Of a DNA stretch of 64,000 bases, positions 1,609 to 59,765 are shown one piece after another. The DNA is from Terricaulis silvestris (GTDB lineage Bacteria; Pseudomonadota; Alphaproteobacteria; Caulobacterales; Aquidulcibacteraceae). The notes beneath the pieces are model-generated. The model saw nothing but the letters and a program-made list of their open reading frames with translations. It was not told the origin of the DNA and ran no database searches. Made by a program: the position numbers and the translations under genes. The stretch spans positions 3,746,501 to 3,810,500 of the forward strand of contig NZ_CP047045.1 of the NCBI RefSeq assembly GCF_009792355.1. The letters are read 5' to 3'. How positions within the stretch are numbered: position 1 is the first letter of the stretch; each line of letters starts with the position of its first letter.

Positions 1609-2195
1609 GCTTGCGCGATACCGTGTTCGCGCAGGAACGCCAGCAGCGGCAGCAGCGGTAAGCCGAGCACTGAAAAGTAGTCCCCGTCCACGCGCTCGAA
1701 CAATTGTGCGCCGAGACCTTCGAGCTGATAGGCGCCGACTGAATGCAACGTCGTGTCACCGGCGCGCGCGAGATAATCATCCAAGAAGGCATCCGAGAAC
1801 GCGCGCATCTTCAGCTTGGGCGTATCGACATGCCGCCAAATGATCGCGCCCTCGCGCGCCACCACGGCGGCCGTCAGCAATTCATGCGTCCGACCACGCA
1901 GCCGCAGCAAATGCTCGCGCGCTTCGGCAACGCTCTTCGGCTTGTCCAGCGTATCGCCTTCAATCGCCAGCATCTGATCGGCGCCGATGACGAACCCGTC
2001 GCGTTTGCGTGAAACCGAGAGCGCCTTCAGTTCGGCCAGCGCATCGGCCTGATCGCGCGGCTTCAACCCATCAGCGCGCAAGCTGGCCTTCGCCGCTTCC
2101 TCATCCACACGCGGCGTTTCGACTTCAAACGTGAGGCCAACGTCCTCAAGCATGCGCCGCCGCGCAGCGCTCCCGGAAGCAAGAATGAGCGTCAC
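1605..2195 (-). CDS. maf: Maf-like nucleoside triphosphate pyrophosphatase
   Basis: A 196-residue Maf/HAM1-fold protein. Maf proteins hydrolyse non-canonical or modified NTPs to NMP and pyrophosphate. The signature N-terminus LILASGSAARRRMLEDVGL (residues 3-21), the EEAAKASL segment, VIGADQML and the C-terminal DGDYFSVLGLPLLPLL are visible. It overlaps ppsR and aroE by 4 nt. Whether it is the YhdE (dTTP/UTP) or YceF subtype cannot be told with certainty here. Confidence 0.93.
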   Translation of the reverse strand: MTLILASGSAARRRMLEDVGLTFEVETPRVDEEAAKASLRADGLKPRDQADALAELKALSVSRKRDGFVIGADQMLAIEGDTLDKPKSVAEAREHLLRLRGRTHELLTAAVVAREGAIIWRHVDTPKLKMRAFSDAFLDDYLARAGDTTLHSVGAYQLEGLGAQLFERVDGDYFSVLGLPLLPLLAFLREHGIAQA

Positions 2196-3028
2196 GGCTC
2201 GCGATGCTCCGCCAGCAAGTTCAACACGGCCGCCGCGGTTTCCTCGATCGAGCGGCGTGAGACATCAACCGTCGGCCACCCTTCCCGCTCGAACAATTTC
2301 TGCGCATCCATCACTTCGCGGCGCACATCTTCTTCGTCTGTGTAACTGCCCGCGCGCGTCTCTTTCATCGCAACCAGGCGATTGCGCCGGATGTGAATGA
2401 GGCGATCTGCCGAGATTAACAGGCCAACCACGAGCGGGCGATCCTTCGCGAACAATTCCGGCGGCAACGGCACACCCGGCACCATCGGCACGTTCGCCGC
2501 CTTCACACCGCGGTGCGCGAGATAGACGCTGGTCGGTGTTTTCGAGGTGCGGCTAACGCCGACCAGGATCACGTCGGCTTCGCTCAGCTCGATGTGCTGC
2601 TGACCGTCGTCGTGGTACATCGCGAAATCCAGCGCATCGATGCGCTTGAAATATTCCGCGTTGAGCTTCCGCGCCGCGCCGACCCGATGGTTCAGCTCCT
2701 GGCCCAAATAGCGCGAGGTGATGTCTAGCACTGGGTCGAGCACGGCCACGCAGGGCATGTCCATTGCCTTGCAGGCATCTTCCAGCAACGCCCGGTGCTC
2801 TAGGTTCGAGAGCGTGAACATTACGATCCCAGGCGCCTCCTCGATTTCCTTGATCACCCGCTCGAGCTGCCGGGCGGATCGAACCAGGAAGTAGGAGTGT
2901 TCCACTGGCAGGATGTTGTCGAACTGAGCGCAGGTCGCGCGCATGACGCCGGCCAAGGTCTCGCCGGTCGCGTCCGAGACCAAGTGGACGTTGCAATAGA
3001 TGGCCAGCCGTTCACGCATGGGGTTCAC
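2192..3028 (-). CDS. ppsR: Pyruvate, water/phosphate dikinase regulatory protein (DUF299)
   Basis: A 278-residue DUF299 protein. The family are bifunctional ADP-dependent kinase/pyrophosphorylases that switch PEP synthase or PPDK off and on by phosphorylating a threonine near the catalytic His. Visible motifs are VHLVSDATGET near the N-terminus and the P-loop-like GVSRTSKTPTSVYLA around residue 155. A second Met at 3019 is an alternative start. It is the first gene of the leftward operon and corresponds to RP001 beside the Caulobacter origin. No intact PPDK or PEP synthase target is seen in the window apart from the divergent protein at 41004. Confidence 0.92.
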   Translation of the reverse strand: MNPMRERLAIYCNVHLVSDATGETLAGVMRATCAQFDNILPVEHSYFLVRSARQLERVIKEIEEAPGIVMFTLSNLEHRALLEDACKAMDMPCVAVLDPVLDITSRYLGQELNHRVGAARKLNAEYFKRIDALDFAMYHDDGQQHIELSEADVILVGVSRTSKTPTSVYLAHRGVKAANVPMVPGVPLPPELFAKDRPLVVGLLISADRLIHIRRNRLVAMKETRAGSYTDEEDVRREVMDAQKLFEREGWPTVDVSRRSIEETAAAVLNLLAEHREP

Positions 3029-3047
3029 ATATCAGCCCTGTAACCGT

Positions 3048-3056
3048 TGTGGACAA
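3048..3056 (-). other. DnaA box-like 9-mer
   Basis: Minus strand reads TTGTCCACA, one mismatch from TTATCCACA. It lies 20 bp from the ppsR start inside the putative origin. Confidence 0.5.
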
Positions 3057-3269
3057 GCTGTTGAGCAAAGCAGGGACTGGGGTGGCTTCTCGAGTGGAAA
3101 GCCTCCGACGAGCCGATCCACTCTCCCCTCGTGGGCGATTCCTCCCCGCGATGCTCACAGCGCGACAACGCGTGCACAAAGGAATCACCGCGACCCACTC
3201 ACCCCACCAAGCCGTTTCCGTGTAAGCACTTTCTGGCTGGCGCCGGCAGGAGCAAGTCTGTGAGCAGCA

Positions 3270-3278
3270 TGTGGAGAA
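3270..3278 (-). other. DnaA box-like 9-mer
   Basis: Minus strand reads TTCTCCACA, one mismatch from TTATCCACA. It has the same orientation as the box at 3048 and lies about 40 bp before the AT-rich stretch. Confidence 0.5.
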
Positions 3279-3358
3279 CGAACTTCTCCCGCTTTGAATG
3301 TCGCTACAACAACGAGTCCCAATACATTCGGATTCAAATTTAAGTTTAAGAGGGAGCA

Positions 3359-4387
3359 ATGGGGACACGGGAGAACCTTCCTGCTCTCTTACGTGTCTTG
3401 AGCGGAGAGAGGCTCGATCCTCCTCCGATCTGGATCATGCGCCAAGCAGGGCGATACCTCCCGGAGTACCGTGAGCTTCGAACCCGGGCGAAGAGCTTCC
3501 TTGATTTTTGCTATTCCCCTGCCCTGGCGACAGAGGCCGTGATGCAGCCGCTCCGGCGCTTCCCGCTCGATGCCGCTATTTTGTTCTCCGACATCCTGGT
3601 CGTGCCCGATGCGCTGGGTCGGAAGGTCTGGTTCGTCGAAGGCGAAGGCCCAAGGCTGGAGCCGCTGATCGGTGAGCAGCGCTGGAGCTTCGGTGAAGCT
3701 GAGAAAGCGATCCAACGGCTCGCGCCTGTCTATGAAGCTGTCGAACGGATCAAAGCAGCCATCCCGGCTGGCACTGCGCTGATCGGATTTTGCGGCGGGC
3801 CGTGGACGGTCGCGACTTACATGCTGCAGGGTCGTGGTGGCGATAAGGACGAAGCGCGCCGCGCGGCCTACCAGCGGCCCGAGGACGTCGACGCTCTTCT
3901 CTCCCTGCTCGCCGAAGCCAGCGCGCAGCATCTCGCGGCCCAAGTCGCCGCCGGTGCTGATTGCGTACAGATTTTCGAAAGCTGGGCTGAGGGGCTGTCG
4001 CAGCCGTTGTTCGATCGGCTGATCATCAAGCCCACTCAGCAACTCGTGAAACGGTTGCGCGCGCTTGGCGTCACAGTACCGATCATCGGATTTCCGCGCG
4101 GCGCGGGCCTGCTCATTGCTGAGTATGCACAGCACACCGGCATCGATGCGATCGGCTTAGACACCGCTGTTCCCTCCGCGGCGGCGCTCCCTTCTTCAAT
4201 GCCCGTGCAAGGCAATCTCGATCCACAATTGCTCGTCGTCGGCGGCGATGCGCTGAGGCGCGGCGTTGAAGAAGTGCGCGAGCGTTTTTGTGGAACACCG
4301 CACATCTTCAATCTCGGCCACGGCATCACGCCACAAGCGTCGCCCGAAAACGTCGCAGAACTCGTACGCTTGGTGAAAGGCGCATGA
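3359..4387 (+). CDS. hemE: Uroporphyrinogen decarboxylase
   Basis: Removes four carboxyl groups from uroporphyrinogen III to give coproporphyrinogen III in heme synthesis; a cytosolic enzyme. The 342-residue length is normal. The N-terminal signature PPIWIMRQAGRYLPEYRELR-like region (residues about 21-40), FSDILVVPDALG, GFCGGPWTVATYM, the QIFESWAEGLS segment and the terminal NLGHGITPQ are all present. The ATG is preceded by GAGGGAG. It is the first gene to the right of the putative origin and overlaps hemH by 4 nt. Confidence 0.97.
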   Translation: MGTRENLPALLRVLSGERLDPPPIWIMRQAGRYLPEYRELRTRAKSFLDFCYSPALATEAVMQPLRRFPLDAAILFSDILVVPDALGRKVWFVEGEGPRLEPLIGEQRWSFGEAEKAIQRLAPVYEAVERIKAAIPAGTALIGFCGGPWTVATYMLQGRGGDKDEARRAAYQRPEDVDALLSLLAEASAQHLAAQVAAGADCVQIFESWAEGLSQPLFDRLIIKPTQQLVKRLRALGVTVPIIGFPRGAGLLIAEYAQHTGIDAIGLDTAVPSAAALPSSMPVQGNLDPQLLVVGGDALRRGVEEVRERFCGTPHIFNLGHGITPQASPENVAELVRLVKGA

Positions 4388-8355: not shown

Positions 8356-9327
8356 CTACGGCGCCAGCACCAAGCTGCCGGTCGTCTTGCGGCCTTCCAG
8401 ATCGCGATGCGCTTGCGCGGCGTCTGCCAATGGATAACGCGCTGGCGCCGCAATCTTCACCGCGCCGCTTTCGAGCACCGCGAACAAACCTGCGGCTGTC
8501 TTATCGAGCTTCTTGGTTGTCGCCGTGTAGTGAAACAGCGTCGGCCGCGTCAGAAACAGCGAGCCCTTTTGCGAGAGCACCAGCGGATTGATATCTGGCG
8601 GCGGGCCGGATGCGTTGCCGAACGACACCAACATCCCGAGCGGCCGCAAGCTATCGAGCGATGCGAGGAACGTGTCTTTGCCAACGCTGTCGTACACAAC
8701 GTGCGCGCCCTTTCCATCCGTCAGCGCGCGCACGCGCTCAGCGATGTTCTCGCGCGGCGTGACGATGACGTGATCGGCGCCAAGCGCGCGCACGATATCG
8801 GCCTTCTCATCGCCACCAACGATCGCAATCACGGTCGCGCCAAGATGCTTGGCCCATTGCACGGCGATCTGACCAACGCCGCCGGCGGCTGCGTGGATCA
8901 CGACGACGTGGTCACGTTCCACGCGAAACGTCTTTCGCAGAAGATAACGCGCAGTCATGCCCTTCAGCATCGAGGCCGCCGCAACGTCGAACGAAACCGC
9001 TTCCGGCAGTTGGACGGCGCGATCATCTCGTACAACATGCATCTCGCTGTAAGAACCGATTGGCCCGGTGCAATAGCCGATGCGATCGCCGACCTTGAAG
9101 CGCGTCACGTCCGCGCCAATCGCATCGACAACACCAGCGCCTTCTTGCCCCAAGCCGCTCGGCAGCGGGATCTTGTACAAGCCGGTGCGATGGTAGGTGT
9201 CGATGAAGTTCACGCCGATCGCGTGATTGCGCACGCGCACTTCATGCGGGCTCGGCTCCGGCGTCGCGACGTCCGCCAGCGCCATGACTTCGGGCCCGCC
9301 GTGTCGCTCAATCCGTATCGCCTTCAT
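8356..9327 (-). CDS. qor: NADPH:quinone oxidoreductase (zinc-free MDR family)
   Basis: A 323-residue medium-chain reductase of the QOR1 type, which reduces quinones or enones with NADPH. It shows NFIDTYHRTGLY near residue 42, GQEGAGVVDAIG, the HAAAGGVGQIAVQWAK nucleotide-binding motif and a C-terminal DLEGRKTTGSLVL. Structural zinc cysteines are absent, as expected for this branch. The start at 9327 (MKAIRIERHGGPEV) is the canonical N-terminus; a longer in-frame extension upstream runs into the antisense of the next gene. Confidence 0.93.
   Translation of the reverse strand: MKAIRIERHGGPEVMALADVATPEPSPHEVRVRNHAIGVNFIDTYHRTGLYKIPLPSGLGQEGAGVVDAIGADVTRFKVGDRIGYCTGPIGSYSEMHVVRDDRAVQLPEAVSFDVAAASMLKGMTARYLLRKTFRVERDHVVVIHAAAGGVGQIAVQWAKHLGATVIAIVGGDEKADIVRALGADHVIVTPRENIAERVRALTDGKGAHVVYDSVGKDTFLASLDSLRPLGMLVSFGNASGPPPDINPLVLSQKGSLFLTRPTLFHYTATTKKLDKTAAGLFAVLESGAVKIAAPARYPLADAAQAHRDLEGRKTTGSLVLAP
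8916..8929. other. parS-like palindrome (weak)
   Basis: Reads GTTCCACGCGAAAC, two mismatches from GTTTCACGTGAAAC. It lies inside the quinone reductase gene, about 6 kb right of the putative origin. Confidence 0.3.
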
Positions 9328-9358: not shown

Positions 9359-10300
9359 TCAGCGCGCCGCGGCGCAGCGGAGCGACGCCAGCCCGTCAGC
9401 GCCATCATTGGCGTCGAGCTCGCGGGAGGCCTCCACCGGCCGATCAGTCGCAATAATCTCAAGCCCCGTGTCCGCGAACGCCGCATACTGTTCGCGACCC
9501 TCGCGCGCAAAGCGGCCGTCCCATGAGCGCTCCGGATTGCCCAGCGTCCCGAAGATCGTCTCCACCCCACGCTGGTCGAGCGTCACGTTGAGCGCGGCGT
9601 TCGGCTCTTCCGTTCCGGTCCATGCGAGCATGCGCGACAGATCAATGCCGCGACGCTCTAGCGCGTCGATGTCGCTCGCCTCATCGACTGAGATCGAGAG
9701 CATCATCTCCGGCGCGAGGCCGTGCACGCGCACGGCCGCATCGTCGCTGTAGGTAATGAACACGACCCTGCCCATCGCGTCCGCTGCGCGCACTTCGGCG
9801 ATCACGTCCTCGTACGAGACGCCCCGCTTCACATCGACCTCAAGGATTGCCTTGCCTAAAGCCCAATCGAGCGCCTCGCGCAGCGTAGGCGGATGCGCAT
9901 CCAGCACCCGTCCGTCATTGTCGCGCAGCCTAAGCGCCTGAATCTCTGCCAGCGTATGCTCGCGCACCAGGCCCGCGCCTGTGGTCGTGCGATCCAGTTC
10001 ATCGTCGTGCATCAACACGAGCTCATTGTCGCGCGTGCGCGCAATGTCGATCTCCAGGATCGCCGGCGTCCGCGCCACCGTGTTGGCGAACGTCTCGACC
10101 GAGTTCTCGGCAAAGCCTGGCGCCGGCCCGCCGCGATGCGCCGCGTCGATGGTGCGGCTGTTCTCGCGCAAGCAATCGAAGAATGCCGGCAGGTTGTACG
10201 GCGCCAATGTCGATGTTGGCGCGGCGCTTCCGGCCACCAGCGCGTCTTGAACATCGCACGCACTCAGCGCCAACACCGCAGCAATCAGCGCGAACTTCAT
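9359..10300 (-). CDS. Glycerophosphodiester phosphodiesterase, lipoprotein
   Basis: A 313-residue GDPD-family enzyme that would hydrolyse glycerophosphodiesters to sn-glycerol 3-phosphate and an alcohol. A short signal peptide ends in the lipobox LSAC (Cys15), so it is probably anchored in the membrane. Catalytic motifs are present: AAHRGG near residue 54, ENSVETF, EIDIARTRDNELVLMHDDELDRTT-like region, and EVDVKRG. The start at 10300 overlaps the stop of the dienelactone hydrolase gene by 4 nt, so the two are one operon. Confidence 0.9.
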   Translation of the reverse strand: MKFALIAAVLALSACDVQDALVAGSAAPTSTLAPYNLPAFFDCLRENSRTIDAAHRGGPAPGFAENSVETFANTVARTPAILEIDIARTRDNELVLMHDDELDRTTTGAGLVREHTLAEIQALRLRDNDGRVLDAHPPTLREALDWALGKAILEVDVKRGVSYEDVIAEVRAADAMGRVVFITYSDDAAVRVHGLAPEMMLSISVDEASDIDALERRGIDLSRMLAWTGTEEPNAALNVTLDQRGVETIFGTLGNPERSWDGRFAREGREQYAAFADTGLEIIATDRPVEASRELDANDGADGLASLRCAAAR

Positions 10301-10986
10301 GCGAGATACTGATTGAAGAACGCGATGGTCCGGCTGTTCGCCAGCTCGGTCGCTGCCGCGTCGTAGTGCTTGCCGCCTTCGCGGGTGAAGGCGTGATCCT
10401 GCTCCGCGTACTCGTGCACGGTCACCAGCGGATTGGGCGCTAGCGTCTCGCGGATCTGGTTCAGTACCTCGACCGGGATGAAAGCGTCTTTCATCGGGTT
10501 GTGCAGCATCACCGGCTTTTTGATGCCCCCGGCCTCGCCGAGCGCCGTGTGGATGCCGCCGCCGTGGTAGCAGACCGTCGCGTCGGTATCGGTGCGGCAC
10601 GCCGCCAAGAACGCGATGTAGCCGCCCATGCAATAGCCCATGACGCCGGCCTTGCTGACGCCCATGCCGCGTGCATGCGCCAACGTCGCCGCCACGTCCG
10701 TGACGCTTGCGTTCTTGTCGAGCGCATTCATGTGATCGATGGCCTGCTTCCATTCTTCATCGGTTTGATCCGTCAGTTCGATACCTGGCTTGATGCGCCA
10801 GAACAGATCCGGCGCGATCGCGAGGAAGCCTTCGCGCGCCAGCCAATCGGCCTTGCCGCGCATCACCGCATTGACGCCGAAAATCTCCTGCACCGCGACG
10901 ACCACGCCTTTGGGCGTTCCACTGGGCCGCGCCACGTAGGCTTTGAACGAACCATCCGGTCCCTGGACTTCGACCCAATCACCCAT
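10297..10986 (-). CDS. Dienelactone hydrolase family protein
   Basis: A 229-residue alpha/beta hydrolase. The nucleophile elbow GYCMGGY near residue 118 carries the DLH-type cysteine instead of serine; the acid and base are likely Asp in MKDAFIP and His in EQDHAFTR. Other family marks are VVVAVQEIFGVN and APDLFWR. True dienelactone hydrolases open a lactone in chloro-aromatic degradation, but many relatives have other ester substrates and no catabolic cluster is present. It is the first gene of a leftward pair with the GDPD gene. Confidence 0.92.
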   Translation of the reverse strand: MGDWVEVQGPDGSFKAYVARPSGTPKGVVVAVQEIFGVNAVMRGKADWLAREGFLAIAPDLFWRIKPGIELTDQTDEEWKQAIDHMNALDKNASVTDVAATLAHARGMGVSKAGVMGYCMGGYIAFLAACRTDTDATVCYHGGGIHTALGEAGGIKKPVMLHNPMKDAFIPVEVLNQIRETLAPNPLVTVHEYAEQDHAFTREGGKHYDAAATELANSRTIAFFNQYLA

Positions 10987-11067
10987 AGCTCGCTCCCAAC
11001 GCTGTCTCTGAGGCTTTGGCCGCGTTATAGACCGGCAACGCGCACGCCGCGCGCAGGAAGTGGTTCG

Positions 11068-11319
11068 ATGAAGTTCACCGTCAATGTGGAGTGCAGCCCC
11101 GAGGAAGCCCGCCGCTTCATGGGCCTGCCGGATGTCACGCCGATCAACGAAGCCCTGGTCTCCGAGATGACCACCCGCATGCAGAAGAACCTCTCGCTGA
11201 TGAGCGGCGAAAGCATGATGAGCTCGTGGATGAGCGTCGGCACCCAGGCTCAGGACGCCTTCGTAAAGCTGATGACGTCGGGCGCCGCGGCCGCCACGGC
11301 TTCACGTGAAAAGCCCTAA
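11068..11319 (+). CDS. Small conserved protein, DUF6489-like
   Basis: An 83-residue protein starting MKFTVNVECSPEEARRFMGLPDV, a pattern I associate with the alphaproteobacterial family DUF6489; its function is unknown. The C-terminal half is helical and methionine-rich (NLSLMSGESMMSSWM). The gene sits 21 bp upstream of mnmE in the same direction, and one parS-like palindrome lies over its final codons. The ATG follows an AGGAAG ribosome binding site. Confidence 0.75.
   Translation: MKFTVNVECSPEEARRFMGLPDVTPINEALVSEMTTRMQKNLSLMSGESMMSSWMSVGTQAQDAFVKLMTSGAAAATASREKP
11299..11312. other. parS-like palindrome
   Basis: Reads GCTTCACGTGAAAA with an intact CACGTG centre, two mismatches from GTTTCACGTGAAAC. 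It lies over the last codons of the small gene before mnmE. Confidence 0.45.
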
Positions 11320-11333
11320 ACGCGCCTTAGCTG

Positions 11334-11347
11334 TTTTCACATGAAAC
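11334..11347. other. parS-like palindrome overlapping the mnmE start
   Basis: Reads TTTTCACATGAAAC, two mismatches from the parS core. The mnmE ATG at 11341 is inside the palindrome, so ParB binding here could affect mnmE transcription. Confidence 0.4.
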
Positions 11348-12735
11348 CGGACACCATCGCAGCGCTCGCGACTGGCGCTGGCCGCGCCGGCGTTGCGGTG
11401 ATCCGGCTCAGCGGGCCCGCTGCCGGCGCTACGCTGCAAGCGCTGACCGCCCGCGATCTGCCGAAGCCCCGCGTCGCCACCCGCGAAGCCTTCTGCGATC
11501 CGCGCAACGGCGTTTCGCTGGATGACGGCATCGCGCTCTGGTTTCCCGGCCCACGCAGCTTCACCGGCGAGGATGTCGCCGAACTCCAGATTCATGGCGG
11601 CCCCGCGGTAATCGCCGCTGTGATCGACGCCTGCCTCAGCCAGCCCGGCGTTCGTGTCGCCGAGCCTGGCGAATACACCCGCCGCGCCTTCGAGAACGGC
11701 AAGCTCGACCTGGCCGAAGCCGAGGGCCTAGCGGACCTCGTGGACGCCGAAACCGAGGGCCAGCGCCGCCAAGCGCTCCGCCAGCGCCGGGGCGCGCTGA
11801 GCAGCGTCTATGAGGGCTGGCGTGGCCGCCTGATCGAGGCGGCGGCGCTGATCGAAGCCGAGATCGATTTCCCGGACGAGGACTTGCCCGGAGCCCTGGC
11901 GCAGCGGGCCGGGCCCGTCCTGCAATCCCTGGCCGCCGACATGGCCAGCCACCTCGACGACGCCCACCGCGGCGAGCGCATCCGCGACGGCTTCCGTATC
12001 GCCATCATTGGCCCACCCAACGCCGGCAAGTCGAGCCTGCTTAATGCGCTGGCGCAACGCGAGGCGGCGATCGTGAGCGAGCTTCCGGGGACCACGCGGG
12101 ACGTGGTCGAGGTCCGACTGGTGCTGGCGGGTTACCCCGTCTGGATCGCCGATACGGCGGGGCTCCGCGAGGCTGCTGACGCTATTGAAGCCGAGGGCGT
12201 GCGCAGGGCGCTGGCTCGGGCCGAGGAGGCCGATCTTAGAGTCCTCGCGGTGGAAGCCGGTCCTGATGGACCAGCCTGGGCTCAGCGCCTTCTGCGCCAC
12301 GGCGATATTTGGCTCCACACGAAGCGCGACCTTCGGTGGGGGCAGCCGACCGAGATCCCGGGCTACAAGCGGCGCATTCGCTACGAAGACCTCATCAAGG
12401 CTCTTCCGATGATGGGGACGCATCCGCCGGGTCCAATCCCGTTCTCGGTTCTCGACGAGATCGACGTGGCCAACTTGGTCGATCACATCGCTGCCAAGGT
12501 CCACCAAGCCCTCGGCCGCGAGGAGGCGCCGGTGCTCACGCGAGCGCGGCATCGGCGGCTCGTGGAAGAGGCGCGATCGGCGCTGCAGCGCGCGATCCCG
12601 GCGCTGGACCAGGCCGCCGAATTGGCGGCCGAAGACGTGCGCGTTGCGGCTGACCAGATCGGACGTTTGACGGGACGCATCGATGTCGAAGATCTGCTCG
12701 ACGAAATCTTCTCGAGCTTTTGCATCGGCAAATGA
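11341..12735 (+). CDS. mnmE: tRNA modification GTPase MnmE
   Basis: With MnmG it makes the 5-carboxymethylaminomethyl modification at U34 of certain tRNAs. The 464-residue protein has the N-terminal tetrahydrofolate-binding domain (IAALATGAGRAGVAVIRLSG), an embedded G domain with G1 IIGPPNAGKSS (about 222-232), G2 PGTTRD, G3 DTAGLR, and the C-terminal catalytic motif FCIGK. The fourth guanine-specificity motif is TKRD instead of the usual NKxD, and the end of the G domain (residues about 330-385) is divergent. Confidence 0.96.
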   Translation: MKPDTIAALATGAGRAGVAVIRLSGPAAGATLQALTARDLPKPRVATREAFCDPRNGVSLDDGIALWFPGPRSFTGEDVAELQIHGGPAVIAAVIDACLSQPGVRVAEPGEYTRRAFENGKLDLAEAEGLADLVDAETEGQRRQALRQRRGALSSVYEGWRGRLIEAAALIEAEIDFPDEDLPGALAQRAGPVLQSLAADMASHLDDAHRGERIRDGFRIAIIGPPNAGKSSLLNALAQREAAIVSELPGTTRDVVEVRLVLAGYPVWIADTAGLREAADAIEAEGVRRALARAEEADLRVLAVEAGPDGPAWAQRLLRHGDIWLHTKRDLRWGQPTEIPGYKRRIRYEDLIKALPMMGTHPPGPIPFSVLDEIDVANLVDHIAAKVHQALGREEAPVLTRARHRRLVEEARSALQRAIPALDQAAELAAEDVRVAADQIGRLTGRIDVEDLLDEIFSSFCIGK

Positions 12736-12764
12736 GATCGCACGAAAACCCACGTTTGACGCGG

Positions 12765-12778
12765 GTTTCACGCGAAAC
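12765..12778. other. parS: parS site (best match)
   Basis: Reads GTTTCACGCGAAAC, one mismatch from the near-universal core GTTTCACGTGAAAC. It lies about 9.5 kb from the putative origin and about 4 kb before parB, the place where ParB loading sites cluster in Caulobacter. Confidence 0.7.
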
Positions 12779-12798
12779 TGGTGAATTGAAATTAGCGG

Positions 12799-12812
12799 GT
12801 TGCACGTGAAGC
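12799..12812. other. parS-like palindrome
   Basis: Reads GTTGCACGTGAAGC with symmetrical changes (G and G at mirrored positions) and an intact CACGTG centre; two mismatches. It starts 20 bp after the end of the best parS site. Confidence 0.5.
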
Positions 12813-12832
12813 GCTGATGCGTAGCGTCGTGC

Positions 12833-12906
12833 TTCGACAAGCTCAGCATGACGCCAATTCAAACACTGCGCCGCTCCATCAATCGCGTCACCCTGAGCCT
12901 GTCGAA
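12833..12906. repeat. Imperfect inverted repeat (REP-like)
   Basis: Two 21-bp arms in opposite orientation at 12833-12853 and 12886-12906, 18 of 21 positions matching, separated by 32 bp. Each arm contains TTCGACA-GCTCAG. Elements of this look are dispersed between genes in many alphaproteobacterial genomes. It could form a cruciform or RNA hairpin; no coding potential. Confidence 0.6.
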
Positions 12907-12975
12907 GGGCGGCGCGACGCACCGGCGGTAGTGAGCAAGTGACGCGGCAAACCCGCTCCTATATGAACCCAGCAC

Positions 12976-14844
12976 ATGAGCTCTGGACCTGCATACGACG
13001 TCATCGTCATCGGCGGCGGCCACGCTGGCTGCGAGGCTGCGGCGGCGGCGGCGCGTCTGGGCGCGCGCACGCTGCTGCTGACGCACAAGCTCGAGACCAT
13101 CGGCGAGATGAGCTGCAACCCGGCCATCGGCGGCCTCGGGAAGGGCCACCTGGTCCGCGAGATCGACGCCCTCGACGGCGTCATGGGCCGCGTCGCCGAC
13201 GCTGCCGGCATCCAGTTCCGGCTGCTCAACCGGTCCAAGGGCCCGGCCGTCCGCGGCCCTCGCGCCCAGTCCGACCGCAAGCTCTATCGCCAGGCCATGC
13301 AGGCTGCGCTGACGGAGCAGGCCAACCTCGACATCCGCGCCGCCGCCGTCGAGGACCTGATCCTCACCGACGGCGTCGTCACCGGCGTCGCCACGGCTAA
13401 CGGCCGGCTCTTCATCGCGCCCCGGGTGGTGCTCACCACTGGGACGTTCCTGAAGGGCGTGATCCACATCGGCGACAAGCGCATCGCAGCGGGCCGGCAC
13501 GGCGAAGCGCCAGCCATAGGGCTCTCGGACCGCTTGTACGGCGCGGGTTTCGCGATGGGGCGCCTGAAGACCGGCACGCCGGCGCGGCTGCAATCCAGCT
13601 CGATCGATTGGGCGTCGCTTGAGAAGCAGCACGGCGACGAAGAGCCGACGCCATTCTCGTTCCTGACCCAGCGCATCACTAACGCGCAGGTCGCCTGCGG
13701 CGTCACTTACACCAACGCCGAGACGCACAAGATCATCGAAGAGTCGCTCTCGAAGTCCGCCGTCTATTCCGGCGCGATCAGCGGGCGAGGGCCGCGCTAT
13801 TGCCCGTCGATCGAAGACAAGGTCGTACGCTTCGCCGACAAGTCCGCGCACCAGATCTTCCTCGAACCCGAAGGCCTGGATGACGACACCGTCTACCCGA
13901 ACGGCATCAGCACGTCGCTGCCGGAGGACGTGCAGGAGCGTTTCATCCGCACCATCGCCGGGCTCGAGAACGTCGTCATCAAACGCCACGCTTATGCGAT
14001 CGAGTACGACTACGTTGATCCGCGCGAGCTGATGCCGACGCTGGAGACGAAGCGCATCAAGGGCCTCTATCTCGCCGGCCAGATCAACGGCACCACCGGC
14101 TACGAAGAAGCCGCCGCGCAGGGACTCATCGCAGGCCTCAACGCAGCCCGCGCCGCATCCGGAGCAGGGCCGTTCGAGATCACGCGGGCCGAAGGCTACA
14201 TCGGCGTGATGATCGATGACCTCGTCACGCGCGGCGTCACCGAGCCCTATCGCATGTTCACCTCGCGCGCCGAGTACCGCCTCTCGCTGCGCGCCGACAA
14301 CGCCGACCAACGCCTCACGCCGAAGGGCATTGAGCTTGGTTGCGTCGGTTCGGAGCGATCGCGTGTTTTCGCCGATAAAATGCGGGAAATCGACACGGCG
14401 CGAACACTGAGCAAATCACTCCAACTCACGCCGCAGCAGGCGGAAGCGCACGGCCTCAAAGTCAATCAAGACGGCCAGCGCCGCGATGCGCTGCAGCTCT
14501 TGGCGTATCCCTCGATCGACTTCGCTCAGCTCGCTGCAATCTGGCCGGAGCTGGGCTCGTTCTCGCGCCAAGCGCGTGAGCAGCTTGAGATCGACGCGCT
14601 CTATTCCGGTTACCTCGAACGCCAGGCGCTCGACGTCGAAGCCTTCAAGCGCGACGAAGATCTGCGCCTCGATCCATCGCTCGATTACGCCGGCGTTGGC
14701 GGGCTCTCCAACGAAGTGCGCGAGAAGCTCGCGGCCGCGCGTCCGGTCACGCTCGGCCAAGCCTCGCGCATCGAAGGCGTCACCGCCGGCGCGCTCACCG
14801 CGCTGCTGGCGCATGTCAAACGCGAACACAGGAAACGTGCATGA
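12976..14844 (+). CDS. mnmG: tRNA uridine-5-carboxymethylaminomethyl synthesis enzyme MnmG
   Basis: FAD-dependent partner of MnmE in U34 modification. The 622 residues include the FAD-binding [15 protein letters not shown] (8-22), the [12 protein letters not shown] signature (about 47-58), [12 protein letters not shown], the cysteine-bearing [12 protein letters not shown] near residue 275, and [20 protein letters not shown]. The C-terminal helical domain is complete ([20 protein letters not shown]). It overlaps the next gene by 4 nt. Confidence 0.97.
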
Positions 14845-15279: not shown

Positions 15280-15924
15280 GTGAGCTACGGCCCGGACGAA
15301 TTTCAGCGGGACCTAGGTTCCACCGTTCCCCGTGAAACAATCGCCCGCCTGGAAACCCACCGGAGGCTCCTGGAGGAGTGGTCCGCCCGGATGAACCTGG
15401 TGGGGCCCAAGGAACTGGACCTGTTCTGGTCCCGCCATGCCCTCGACAGCGCCCAGCTCATTAAATTCGCGCCACAGGCGAAATCCTGGGCGGACCTCGG
15501 TTCCGGGGCAGGGTTCCCCGGTTTGGTGGTTGCAGCCTTCCTGGCAGACACACCTGGCGCCTCCGTCCATCTGGTCGAATCCACCGGAAAGAAGGCCGCT
15601 TTTCTTCGCGCCGTGGCCCAAGAGGCGGGGCTGCCGGTGACCGTCTTCAACCAGCGGATCGAGGACTTTGGCCGGGGCCAGGGCCCCTATGACGTCGTTA
15701 CCGCCCGTGCGCTGGCGACCTTGCCGCGACTCATCACCTATGCGAAGCCGATTCTGGATCGCGGCGCGATCGGGCTCTTCCATAAAGGCGCAGACGTTGA
15801 CGCCGAGCTGGCCGCCGCATCCGACGCTCTTAATGGTGGGGCGTTCCAAGCAGACGTGCTGGAGAGCCTCAGCGATCCGCGCGGCCGCATAATTCGTGTC
15901 ACGAAGGCCGCGGCGCGATCCTGA
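15280..15924 (+). CDS. rsmG: 16S rRNA (guanine-527-N7)-methyltransferase RsmG
   Basis: Methylates G527 in 16S rRNA with S-adenosylmethionine. The 214-residue product has NLVGPKELDLFWSRHALDS, the SAM-binding WADLGSGAGFPGLVVA (about residues 70-85), and a second motif VHLVESTGKKAAFL. It starts with GTG at 15280, giving MSYGPDEF. A parS-like site lies within its first 20 codons. Gene order mnmG-rsmG-parA-parB is the standard origin-proximal one (gidA-gidB-parAB). Confidence 0.95.
   Translation: MSYGPDEFQRDLGSTVPRETIARLETHRRLLEEWSARMNLVGPKELDLFWSRHALDSAQLIKFAPQAKSWADLGSGAGFPGLVVAAFLADTPGASVHLVESTGKKAAFLRAVAQEAGLPVTVFNQRIEDFGRGQGPYDVVTARALATLPRLITYAKPILDRGAIGLFHKGADVDAELAAASDALNGGAFQADVLESLSDPRGRIIRVTKAAARS
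15325..15338. other. parS-like palindrome inside rsmG
   Basis: Reads GTTCCCCGTGAAAC, two mismatches from the core, and is followed by A as in the extended parS. Its right half is perfect. Confidence 0.5.
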
Positions 15925-15948: not shown

Positions 15949-16737
15949 ATGCGTGTTTTGGCGATCGCCAACCAGAAGGGCGGCGTGGGCAAGACGACGA
16001 CGGCCATCAATCTCGGCACCGCTTTGGCGGCCGCCGGGAAGGGCGTCTTGATCTTCGACACCGACCCGCAAGGCAACGCGTCGACGGGCCTCGACATCCA
16101 TCCGCACGACCGCACCGTCACGAGCTACGACGTGCTCGTTGGTCAGCTGCCTTTGTCGAAAGCGATCATGCCGACGAAGGTGCCGAACCTTTACATCACT
16201 GCCGGCGATGCGCGCCTCTCTGGTGTTGAAGGCGAACTGATGGGCGAAGCGCAGCCGCAGTTTTTCCTGCGCAACGCGATCGACAAATTTCGCGCGGAAT
16301 CGCAGCTGGGCGTGGATTATATGCTGATCGACTGCCCGCCGTCTTTGAACGTGCTGACGGTGAATGCGCTCACCGCGGCTGATGGCGTGCTGGTGCCGCT
16401 GCAAACAGAATACTTCGCGCTCGAAGGTCTCGCGCAATTGGTTGCGACCATCAACGCGGTGAAGGTCAATCTCAACGCCGCGCTCGAGATCCAGGGCGTG
16501 GTGCTGACGATGTACGACAAGCGCACCACGCTCTCTGAGCAAGTCGCGCAAGAGGTGAGGGCGCACTTCCCGGATAAGGTCTATGAGACCGTGATCCCGC
16601 GGAACGTCCGCATCAGTGAGGCGCCGAGCCACGGCCTGCCCGCGATCATCTACGATCAGAACGCAACCGGCAGCAAAGCCTACATCAAGCTTGCCAAAGA
16701 GCTGATCGAACGCGAGCGGATGCTGAACGCAGCGTAG
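15949..16737 (+). CDS. parA: Chromosome partitioning ATPase ParA
   Basis: A 262-residue Walker-type ATPase. The deviant Walker A KGGVGKTTTA occupies residues 10-19 with the signature lysine; FDTDPQGNAS and LIDCPPSLN follow. It forms the nucleoid-bound gradient along which ParB-parS complexes move during origin segregation. A GGAGACGGGG ribosome binding site precedes the ATG. It is the short chromosomal type without an N-terminal HTH, so it does not repress its own operon directly. Confidence 0.96.
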   Translation: MRVLAIANQKGGVGKTTTAINLGTALAAAGKGVLIFDTDPQGNASTGLDIHPHDRTVTSYDVLVGQLPLSKAIMPTKVPNLYITAGDARLSGVEGELMGEAQPQFFLRNAIDKFRAESQLGVDYMLIDCPPSLNVLTVNALTAADGVLVPLQTEYFALEGLAQLVATINAVKVNLNAALEIQGVVLTMYDKRTTLSEQVAQEVRAHFPDKVYETVIPRNVRISEAPSHGLPAIIYDQNATGSKAYIKLAKELIERERMLNAA

Positions 16738-16826
16738 GTTTGGCCGGAAATTTTTACCGGTGGGCAAGGATTGCCCATCAAGTTGTTAAGCATACCGAAT
16801 CGGGTCGGACGAAGGACGAGGGCGAT

Positions 16827-17840
16827 ATGAGCGATTTGAGACCGCGAGGACTGGGCCGAGGACTCTCCGCTCTGCTCGGCGAACCCGTGCGCACTGAAAC
16901 GCCGCCCGCGCCGGCGAACCAGCAGACCGCGCAACCTGTGCAACAGCGCGCGCCGATCGAGCCGCCGCGCAATGTATTCGAACTGCCGGTCACGCAGCCC
17001 GCTGCGCCCGCGCCGACGACTACCGCGCCTGCGCCGATGTCGTCGAACGACGCTGGTCCGCGAGGCCTCGCGATCGACTTGGTGCAGCGCAATCCGCAAC
17101 AGCCGCGCAAGCATTTCGACGAAGCCGAACTCAACGACCTGGCCTCGTCGATCAAGTCGCATGGCGTGCTGCAGCCGATTTTGGTGCGCCCGATTGCGGG
17201 TGGCAAGTACGAGATCGTCGCCGGTGAGCGCCGTTGGCGCGCCGCGCAAAAGGCAGGCCTGCATTCGATCCCGGCCGTGATCCGCGAGCTCAATGAAGTT
17301 GAAGTGCTCGAAATCGCCATCGTCGAAAACGTCCAGCGTATGGACCTCAATCCGATCGAAGAAGCGCAAGGCTTCCAAGCGCTGATCGATCGCTTCGGCC
17401 GCACACAACAAGAAATCGCCGACTCTGTCGGCAAGTCGCGCCCGCACATCGCAAACATGCTTCGCCTCTTGGCGCTGCCTGACGATCTGCAGGAAATGGT
17501 GCGCGACGGCCGGCTCTCGTCCGGCCACGCGCGCGCCATTCTCACTGCGCCCGATCCGCGCGGCCTTGCTCAACGCGCAATCAGCGAAGGCCTGAACGTC
17601 CGCGAGATCGAGCGCTTGGCGCAGGTTGCCAAGGACGAAAAGCACGGCCCGCGCGTCAACACCGGCGCCTCGACCGATGGCAAGTCCGCCGACACGCGCG
17701 CGCTGGAGCAAAGCTTGTCCAATGCGCTCGGTCTCGACGTGACGATCTCCGAGAAGGGGACGGCGGGCGAGCTGAGGGTCAGCTACAAGACGCTGGAACA
17801 GCTCGACGACGTGATCCGGCGCTTGCGCGGCGGCTTCTAA
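16827..17840 (+). CDS. parB: Chromosome partitioning protein ParB
   Basis: A 337-residue ParB/Spo0J. The start MSDLRPRGLGRGLSALLG is the standard N-terminus that contacts ParA. A Pro/Ala-rich linker follows, then the CTP-binding core with QPRKHFDE and GERRWRAA (about 133-140), the ENVQRMDLNPIEEA segment, an HTH (TQQEIADSVGKSRPHIANMLRLL) and a C-terminal dimerisation domain. The ParB clamp loads on parS and spreads by CTP binding. The gap to parA is 89 bp. Confidence 0.96.
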   Translation: MSDLRPRGLGRGLSALLGEPVRTETPPAPANQQTAQPVQQRAPIEPPRNVFELPVTQPAAPAPTTTAPAPMSSNDAGPRGLAIDLVQRNPQQPRKHFDEAELNDLASSIKSHGVLQPILVRPIAGGKYEIVAGERRWRAAQKAGLHSIPAVIRELNEVEVLEIAIVENVQRMDLNPIEEAQGFQALIDRFGRTQQEIADSVGKSRPHIANMLRLLALPDDLQEMVRDGRLSSGHARAILTAPDPRGLAQRAISEGLNVREIERLAQVAKDEKHGPRVNTGASTDGKSADTRALEQSLSNALGLDVTISEKGTAGELRVSYKTLEQLDDVIRRLRGGF

Positions 17841-59690: not shown

Positions 59691-59765
59691 GCGGGCGTAG
59701 CTCAGGGGTAGAGCACAACCTTGCCAAGGTTGGGGTCGTGAGTTCGAATCTCATCGCCCGCTCCA
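59691..59765 (+). tRNA. tRNA-Gly (anticodon GCC)
   Basis: 75 nt including an encoded CCA. The 7-bp acceptor stem (GCGGGCG with CGCCCGC), D-arm with AGGGGTAGAGC, anticodon loop TTGCCAA with anticodon GCC at 59723-59725, and the GTTCGAATC T-arm are complete. It reads glycine codons GGC and GGU. Confidence 0.95.

Follow-up and report, generated by a model that had tools for sequence, protein, structure and literature searches.

The window analysed here is a 64,000-nucleotide stretch of the chromosome of the soil bacterium Terricaulis silvestris. It spans contig positions 3,746,501-3,810,500; the contig, a single one of 3,864,763 bp, starts near dnaA. Close to its left end, the genes ppsR and hemE diverge around an intergenic gap (Table 1), with the order coaE-aroE-maf-ppsR upstream of the gap and hemE-hemH-hemJ-rho downstream. 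An Rfam search returned no match within the gap; the sole Rfam match in the window was a tRNA gene at 59691-59762.

Table 1. Features of the ppsR-hemE locus and the neighboring parS region, in window positions
Feature	Position	Strand	Basis or remark
ppsR (COG1806/DUF299 kinase-pyrophosphorylase)	2192..3028	-	left flanking gene; Pfam PF03618, 302 bits
Putative chromosomal replication origin, intergenic, 330 bp	3029..3358	.	synteny in 94 alphaproteobacterial loci and genus footprint
DnaA box A, TTGTCCACA	3048..3056	-	genome-wide scan; 7/9 positions identical in 26/26 genus sequences, other two in 23/26
GATTCCT, GANTC site 1 and left arm of GATTCCT/AGGAATC inverted repeat	3137..3143	+	CGATTCC in 26/26
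Degenerate DnaA-like box C, here ATGCTCACA	3151..3159	+	genus alignment; CTCTCCACA or CTTTCCACA in many relatives
AGGAATC, GANTC site 2 and right arm of inverted repeat	3180..3186	+	GAATC in 26/26
DnaA box B, TTCTCCACA	3270..3278	-	TGTG kept in at least 24/26, rest variable
Degenerate DnaA-like site D, TTCTCCC, adjoining box B	3284..3290	+	T-S-T-C-C-C mostly conserved
CAACAACGAGTC conserved block with GANTC site 3 (3314-3318)	3307..3318	+	each column in at least 24/26
AT-rich stretch, candidate DNA-unwinding element	3322..3351	.	77% AT 30-mer; overlaps GANTC site 4 (3331-3335)
hemE (uroporphyrinogen decarboxylase)	3359..4387	+	right flanking gene; Pfam PF01208, 352 bits
parS-like site inside qor, 2 mismatches	8916..8929	+	conserved in 16/16 genus genomes
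KOPS (GGGNAGGG) polarity flip, minus to plus	9766..13145	.	window KOPS scan; 8-10 kb from gap
parS-like site in DUF6489 gene	11299..11312	+	
parS-like site at mnmE start	11334..11347	+	16/16 genus genomes
parS-like site GTTTCACGCGAAAC, 1 mismatch, mnmE-mnmG gap	12765..12778	+	
Second parS-like site, mnmE-mnmG gap	12799..12812	+	
parS-like site in rsmG	15325..15338	+	
parB	16827..17840	+	PF02195, 133 bits; parA at 15949-16737

Divergent ppsR and hemE genes around a gap, mostly of 330-600 bp, were found at 94 alphaproteobacterial loci. A sequence-only reading of this DNA had noted synteny with the Caulobacter origin (Cori) and divergent flanking genes, and both are borne out by the Pfam families (PF03618 and PF01208) that enclose the gap. 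The experimental Caulobacter Cori lies between hemE and a COG1806 gene (PMC1914354), and the marker-frequency peak of Hyphomonas neptunium lies close to hemE (PMC6650430). Origins of the hemE/COG1806 type are recognized, among other criteria, by a hemE and/or COG1806 orthologue as neighbor and by above-average AT content (PMC1914354); here, both genes are present, and the AT share is 44% in the gap vs. 37% locally. In three records labelled “Caulobacteraceae” (L121, L122, and L123), hemE is 67-70% identical to that of the window and has no neighboring ppsR.

The gap contains the two near-consensus DnaA boxes proposed earlier, TTGTCCACA and TTCTCCACA, and both are conserved in the genus. They fit the pattern TTNTCCACA, which occurs 47 times in the 3.86-Mb genome and would be expected 0.004 times in 331 bp, a chance figure that is somewhat optimistic because the pattern was itself derived from these two boxes. 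At 222 bp apart, boxes A and B are the closest such pair genome-wide (the next-closest pair is separated by 401 bp), and no comparable gap exists elsewhere in the genome when DnaA boxes, the sole site type compared, are considered. Across the whole window, DnaA boxes with one mismatch were no more frequent than chance (4 found vs. 3.25 expected). The AT-rich stretch reported alongside the boxes is also real, with an AT content reached by ~5e-5 of sampled genome windows.

Four GANTC (CcrM) sites, at 3137, 3182, 3314, and 3331, had been missed in the sequence-only reading, as had the degenerate DnaA-like sites at 3151(+) and 3284(+). The gap was kept in each of the 26 genus sequences aligned, one of which is the window's own. 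Most of it could not be aligned among them, and what did align were seven short blocks: box A as TGTGGACAAG, GCGATTCC, the CACA of box C, GAATC, the TGTG of box B, CAACAACGAGTC, and a TATC near ppsR. The resulting genus layout is box A-88/89 bp-GATTC-45 bp-GAATC-124 bp-ACAACAACGAGTC. The distance from box A to GATTC was 88 or 89 bp, or 77 bp in three genomes, which is about one helical turn shorter and possibly reflects a single event. From GATTC to GAATC, the distance was 45 bp in 25 of the 26 sequences and 44 bp in the other, and from GAATC to the CAACAACGAGTC block it was 123 or 124 bp wherever the block was scored. Fixed distance without fixed sequence is the pattern that a rigid protein-DNA assembly would demand. 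Pooling 16 genus genomes, we counted 21 TTNTCCACA sites in 5.5 kb of gap vs. 1 in 321 kb of flank and a GANTC density of 12/kb in the gap vs. 1.3/kb in the flank, although these counts are not independent because the relatives share ancestry.

As had been claimed from the sequence, no clear CtrA sites were found. No TTAA-N7-TTAA match with at most one mismatch occurs in the gap, and its sole TTAA pair is spaced as TTAA-N2-TTAA. Exact CtrA motifs were present in the gap of 0 of 16 genus genomes, with an imperfect one in seven, and none was found in the gaps of three sister-genus genomes. By contrast, the positive control recovered exact motifs in the gaps of 8 of 10 Caulobacteraceae and 4 of 5 Hyphomonadaceae-like (f2) genomes. 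An IHF search gave no site in the gap at up to one mismatch, no match to the consensus in the window, and no position conserved in the genus; neither a TGATCCACA G-box nor a TCCCCA W-box was found at the gap. The gap differs in this from a CtrA-repressed Cori of the Caulobacter type, with its CtrA sites and G- and W-boxes, and also from the CtrA and IHF sites looked for in hemE/COG1806-type origins, some accepted members of which have no CtrA sites either. The genome does encode CtrA (84% identity over 224 residues, using a Caulobacter sequence as query), as well as GcrA and a single CcrM-type RAMA-domain protein.

These results support, at the level of sites, the earlier suggestion that cell-cycle control may differ from Caulobacter, even though CtrA is encoded. 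Judging from the motifs, the best explanation would be that direct Caulobacter-style CtrA repression is absent or much weakened at the gap. CtrA sites are described in Caulobacter origins and not in most other alphaproteobacterial origins (PMC4468827), so an origin that has lost its CtrA sites is no novelty in itself. Within this one order, the Caulobacteraceae and Hyphomonadaceae-like gaps carry CtrA sites, whereas the genus and three sister-genus genomes have none or imperfect ones, and it is therefore worth asking what replaced CtrA. Terricaulis is placed beside the Hyphomonadaceae, and its description is cited as prosthecate and budding (PMC12700997). The question raised is what brakes replication in such a lineage instead of CtrA.

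Comparison with known origins places the gap among its relatives. Like Cori of Caulobacter crescentus (hemE-CC0001/COG1806), it has the same divergent flanks, DnaA boxes, an AT-rich stretch, and GANTC sites, with parABS on the hemE side ~10 kb away. Unlike Cori, it has none of the TTAA-N7-TTAA, G-box, W-box, or IHF matches listed above, its boxes read TTGTCCACA and TTCTCCACA, and it measures 330 bp vs. ~530 bp in Caulobacteraceae. The H. neptunium origin is likewise hemE-proximal, with parAB/parS several kb off and a GC skew that is uninformative too (PMC6650430), whereas the Hyphomonadaceae-like gaps differ from Terricaulis in having CtrA-like sites and double the number of GANTC sites. The hemE-type origins of Rickettsiales (Wolbachia, Ehrlichia, and Rickettsia) answer to the same prediction criteria and in some cases have no CtrA sites (PMC1914354), but they sit in AT-rich, reduced genomes and have IHF sites. 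Finally, ppsR-hemE gaps in Rhizobiales (22 of loci L127-L193) resemble the Terricaulis gap in their TTNTCCACA boxes, at 1.8 per genome, and in their scarcity of CtrA-like sites, but are longer and more AT-rich, and TTATCCACA boxes, absent from the Terricaulis gap, are common there.

Strand polarity was assessed over the whole genome. Raw 20-kb GC skew had no clean minimum and was too scrambled to decide the origin. Skew at four-fold sites by arm and strand showed an effect of 0.02-0.15 against a per-gene scatter of 0.2 and therefore cannot place the switch within 10 kb. By contrast, KOPS octamers, which orient FtsK, showed nearly perfect polarity: those of the left arm were minus and those of the right arm plus, and the sign switched near 3.76 Mb and again near 1.90-1.96 Mb, delimiting arms of ~1.8 and 2.0 Mb. 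Because a dif search (CGCATA-N6-TTATGTTAA, up to two mismatches) gave no match, the terminus is placed by the KOPS switch alone. The GC skew of the genome consists of many alternating blocks, which suggests many inversions, and yet KOPS polarity is still nearly perfect.

In the genus, the KOPS switch was consistently displaced from the gap, on the hemE side; in the window, it lies between 9,766 and 13,138. In 19 pooled genomes, KOPS counts were 72 minus and 2 plus before 11.4 kb and 0 minus and 36 plus after 13.1 kb, and a switch modelled at 3.2 kb fit worse by ~50 log units. After homologous sites were collapsed in the 16 genus genomes, 10 distinct KOPS remained between the gap and the switch, all minus, and 12 beyond it, all plus. 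Elsewhere, the switch lies near +8 kb in the Hyphomonadaceae-like genomes, beyond +11 kb in Rhizobiales, and on the opposite side of the gap in Caulobacteraceae (near -12 kb, where polarity is weaker). As these displaced flips include the family of Caulobacter, with its proven Cori, a KOPS switch does not mark an origin exactly, and an origin call in Terricaulis is not overturned by its 8-10-kb offset. A GC-skew inflection far from the gap had been named beforehand as an observation that would refute an origin. No such refutation arose: the KOPS flip lies at 9.8-13.1 kb, not at the gap but within ~10 kb of it on a 3.86-Mb chromosome. This offset warns against placing origins from skew or KOPS alone.

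The same region contains five to six parS-like sites over 8.9-15.3 kb, beside parAB, most of which are present in all 16 genus genomes. The gap between parA and parB (16738-16826) is GANTC-rich in the genus, at 10/kb vs. 1.5/kb over the whole 20-kb loci, which suggests methylation-dependent control of parB.

Taken together, synteny, a DnaA-box pair unique in the genome, the AT-rich element, the GANTC sites, and genus-rigid spacing support the proposal that the chromosomal origin lies here. We put at roughly 85% the probability that the chromosome replicates bidirectionally from a single origin in the ppsR-hemE gap, and we classify the gap as a hemE/COG1806-type origin, a variant without CtrA or IHF sites and with a phased GANTC pair. 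This would fix the origin of a Terricaulis-like chromosome at the sequence level, with a testable anatomy in which CtrA sites are missing and DnaA boxes accompany an inverted GANTC pair of constant spacing.

From this anatomy and the Caulobacter precedent, we infer how initiation, including DnaA binding, unwinding, and a role for methylation, might proceed. DnaA would bind boxes A and B, along with the weaker C and D, and nucleate a nucleoprotein complex whose geometry across the fixed-length core would be set by the helical spacing. The AT-rich element beside hemE would then open, followed by helicase loading. CcrM-type methylation of GANTC, chiefly of the invariant 45-bp inverted pair, probably serves to mark origins already replicated or to recruit a reader, such that the methylation state would report whether the origin had been copied. 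Finally, the parS array and parAB, 6-12 kb away, may organise segregation, with ParB/parS moving the new origin.

Several observations count against an origin in the gap. The KOPS switch is 8-10 kb off, with the 10 distinct KOPS in between all of left-arm polarity. There are two near-consensus DnaA boxes only, with no IHF, W-box, or G-box signature, and the conserved blocks beside hemE might belong to a promoter. In Caulobacter, transcription is also under DnaA and CcrM control. It could be argued that the gap is a conserved divergent ppsR/hemE promoter region under DnaA and GANTC methylation, with the origin elsewhere, as conserved blocks do lie close to both start codons. However, we consider this highly improbable: over ~260 bp, the central spacers keep their length but not their sequence, the gap holds the genome's only close DnaA-box pair, and the homologous gaps of relatives have been proven or mapped as origins (PMC1914354, PMC6650430).

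If replication started instead in or near mnmE-mnmG, 8-10 kb right of the gap, and the gap were merely a promoter region controlled by DnaA and methylation, then the pooled KOPS flip of the 19 genomes would be accounted for, as would a local sign change in GC skew to the right of the gap, near 17 kb. Yet the gaps near the flip contain no TTNTCCACA site, the flank having one in 321 kb, and families with the same synteny flip elsewhere (Caulobacteraceae near -12 kb and Rhizobiales beyond +11 kb). With no such boxes nearby and the KOPS flip an inexact marker, we rejected this placement as quite unlikely. An origin at dnaA, at the contig start and 115 kb from the gap, is barely credible. The gene does lie at contig position 370, and the 1.90-1.96 Mb switch is almost exactly opposite position 0, but KOPS polarity is plus on both sides of dnaA, and no switch occurs there. 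Moreover, dnaA has no DnaA boxes, no TTNTCCACA site occurs between 3,749,778 and 218,462, parS and parAB are located elsewhere, and the Caulobacter origin is not at dnaA (PMC1914354). We rejected this candidate for its lack of both DnaA boxes and a polarity switch.

With the gap retained as the origin, the most interesting and unexpected by-product of the analysis is that the KOPS switch falls inside the parS array. This pattern holds in the genus and is compatible with the Hyphomonadaceae-like genomes. It breaks down in Caulobacteraceae and Rhizobiales and may thus be restricted to certain lineages or due to chance. One tentative and rather doubtful reading is that the parS centromere, and not the replication origin, sets KOPS polarity in the genus and maybe also in its sister families. 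The DNA between the origin and parS would then read as part of the opposite arm, with FtsK/SMC sorting DNA relative to a parS-anchored pole. If true, this arrangement and the loss of CtrA sites would mean that initiation, arm polarity, and the centromere, usually thought to be one point, are separated. The offset between origin and KOPS switch thus allows one to ask whether polarity tracks parS or the origin.

The parS region is not always on the hemE side. In two genomes of the genus Caulobacter, G104 (L218-L219) and G069 (L226-L227), the mnmE-parB block with parS lies inverted on the ppsR side, as it would after an inversion spanning the origin. In an Oceanicaulis metagenome-assembled genome (L165), the mnmG-rsmG-parA-parB block is also on the ppsR side of the gap, on the same strand as hemE.
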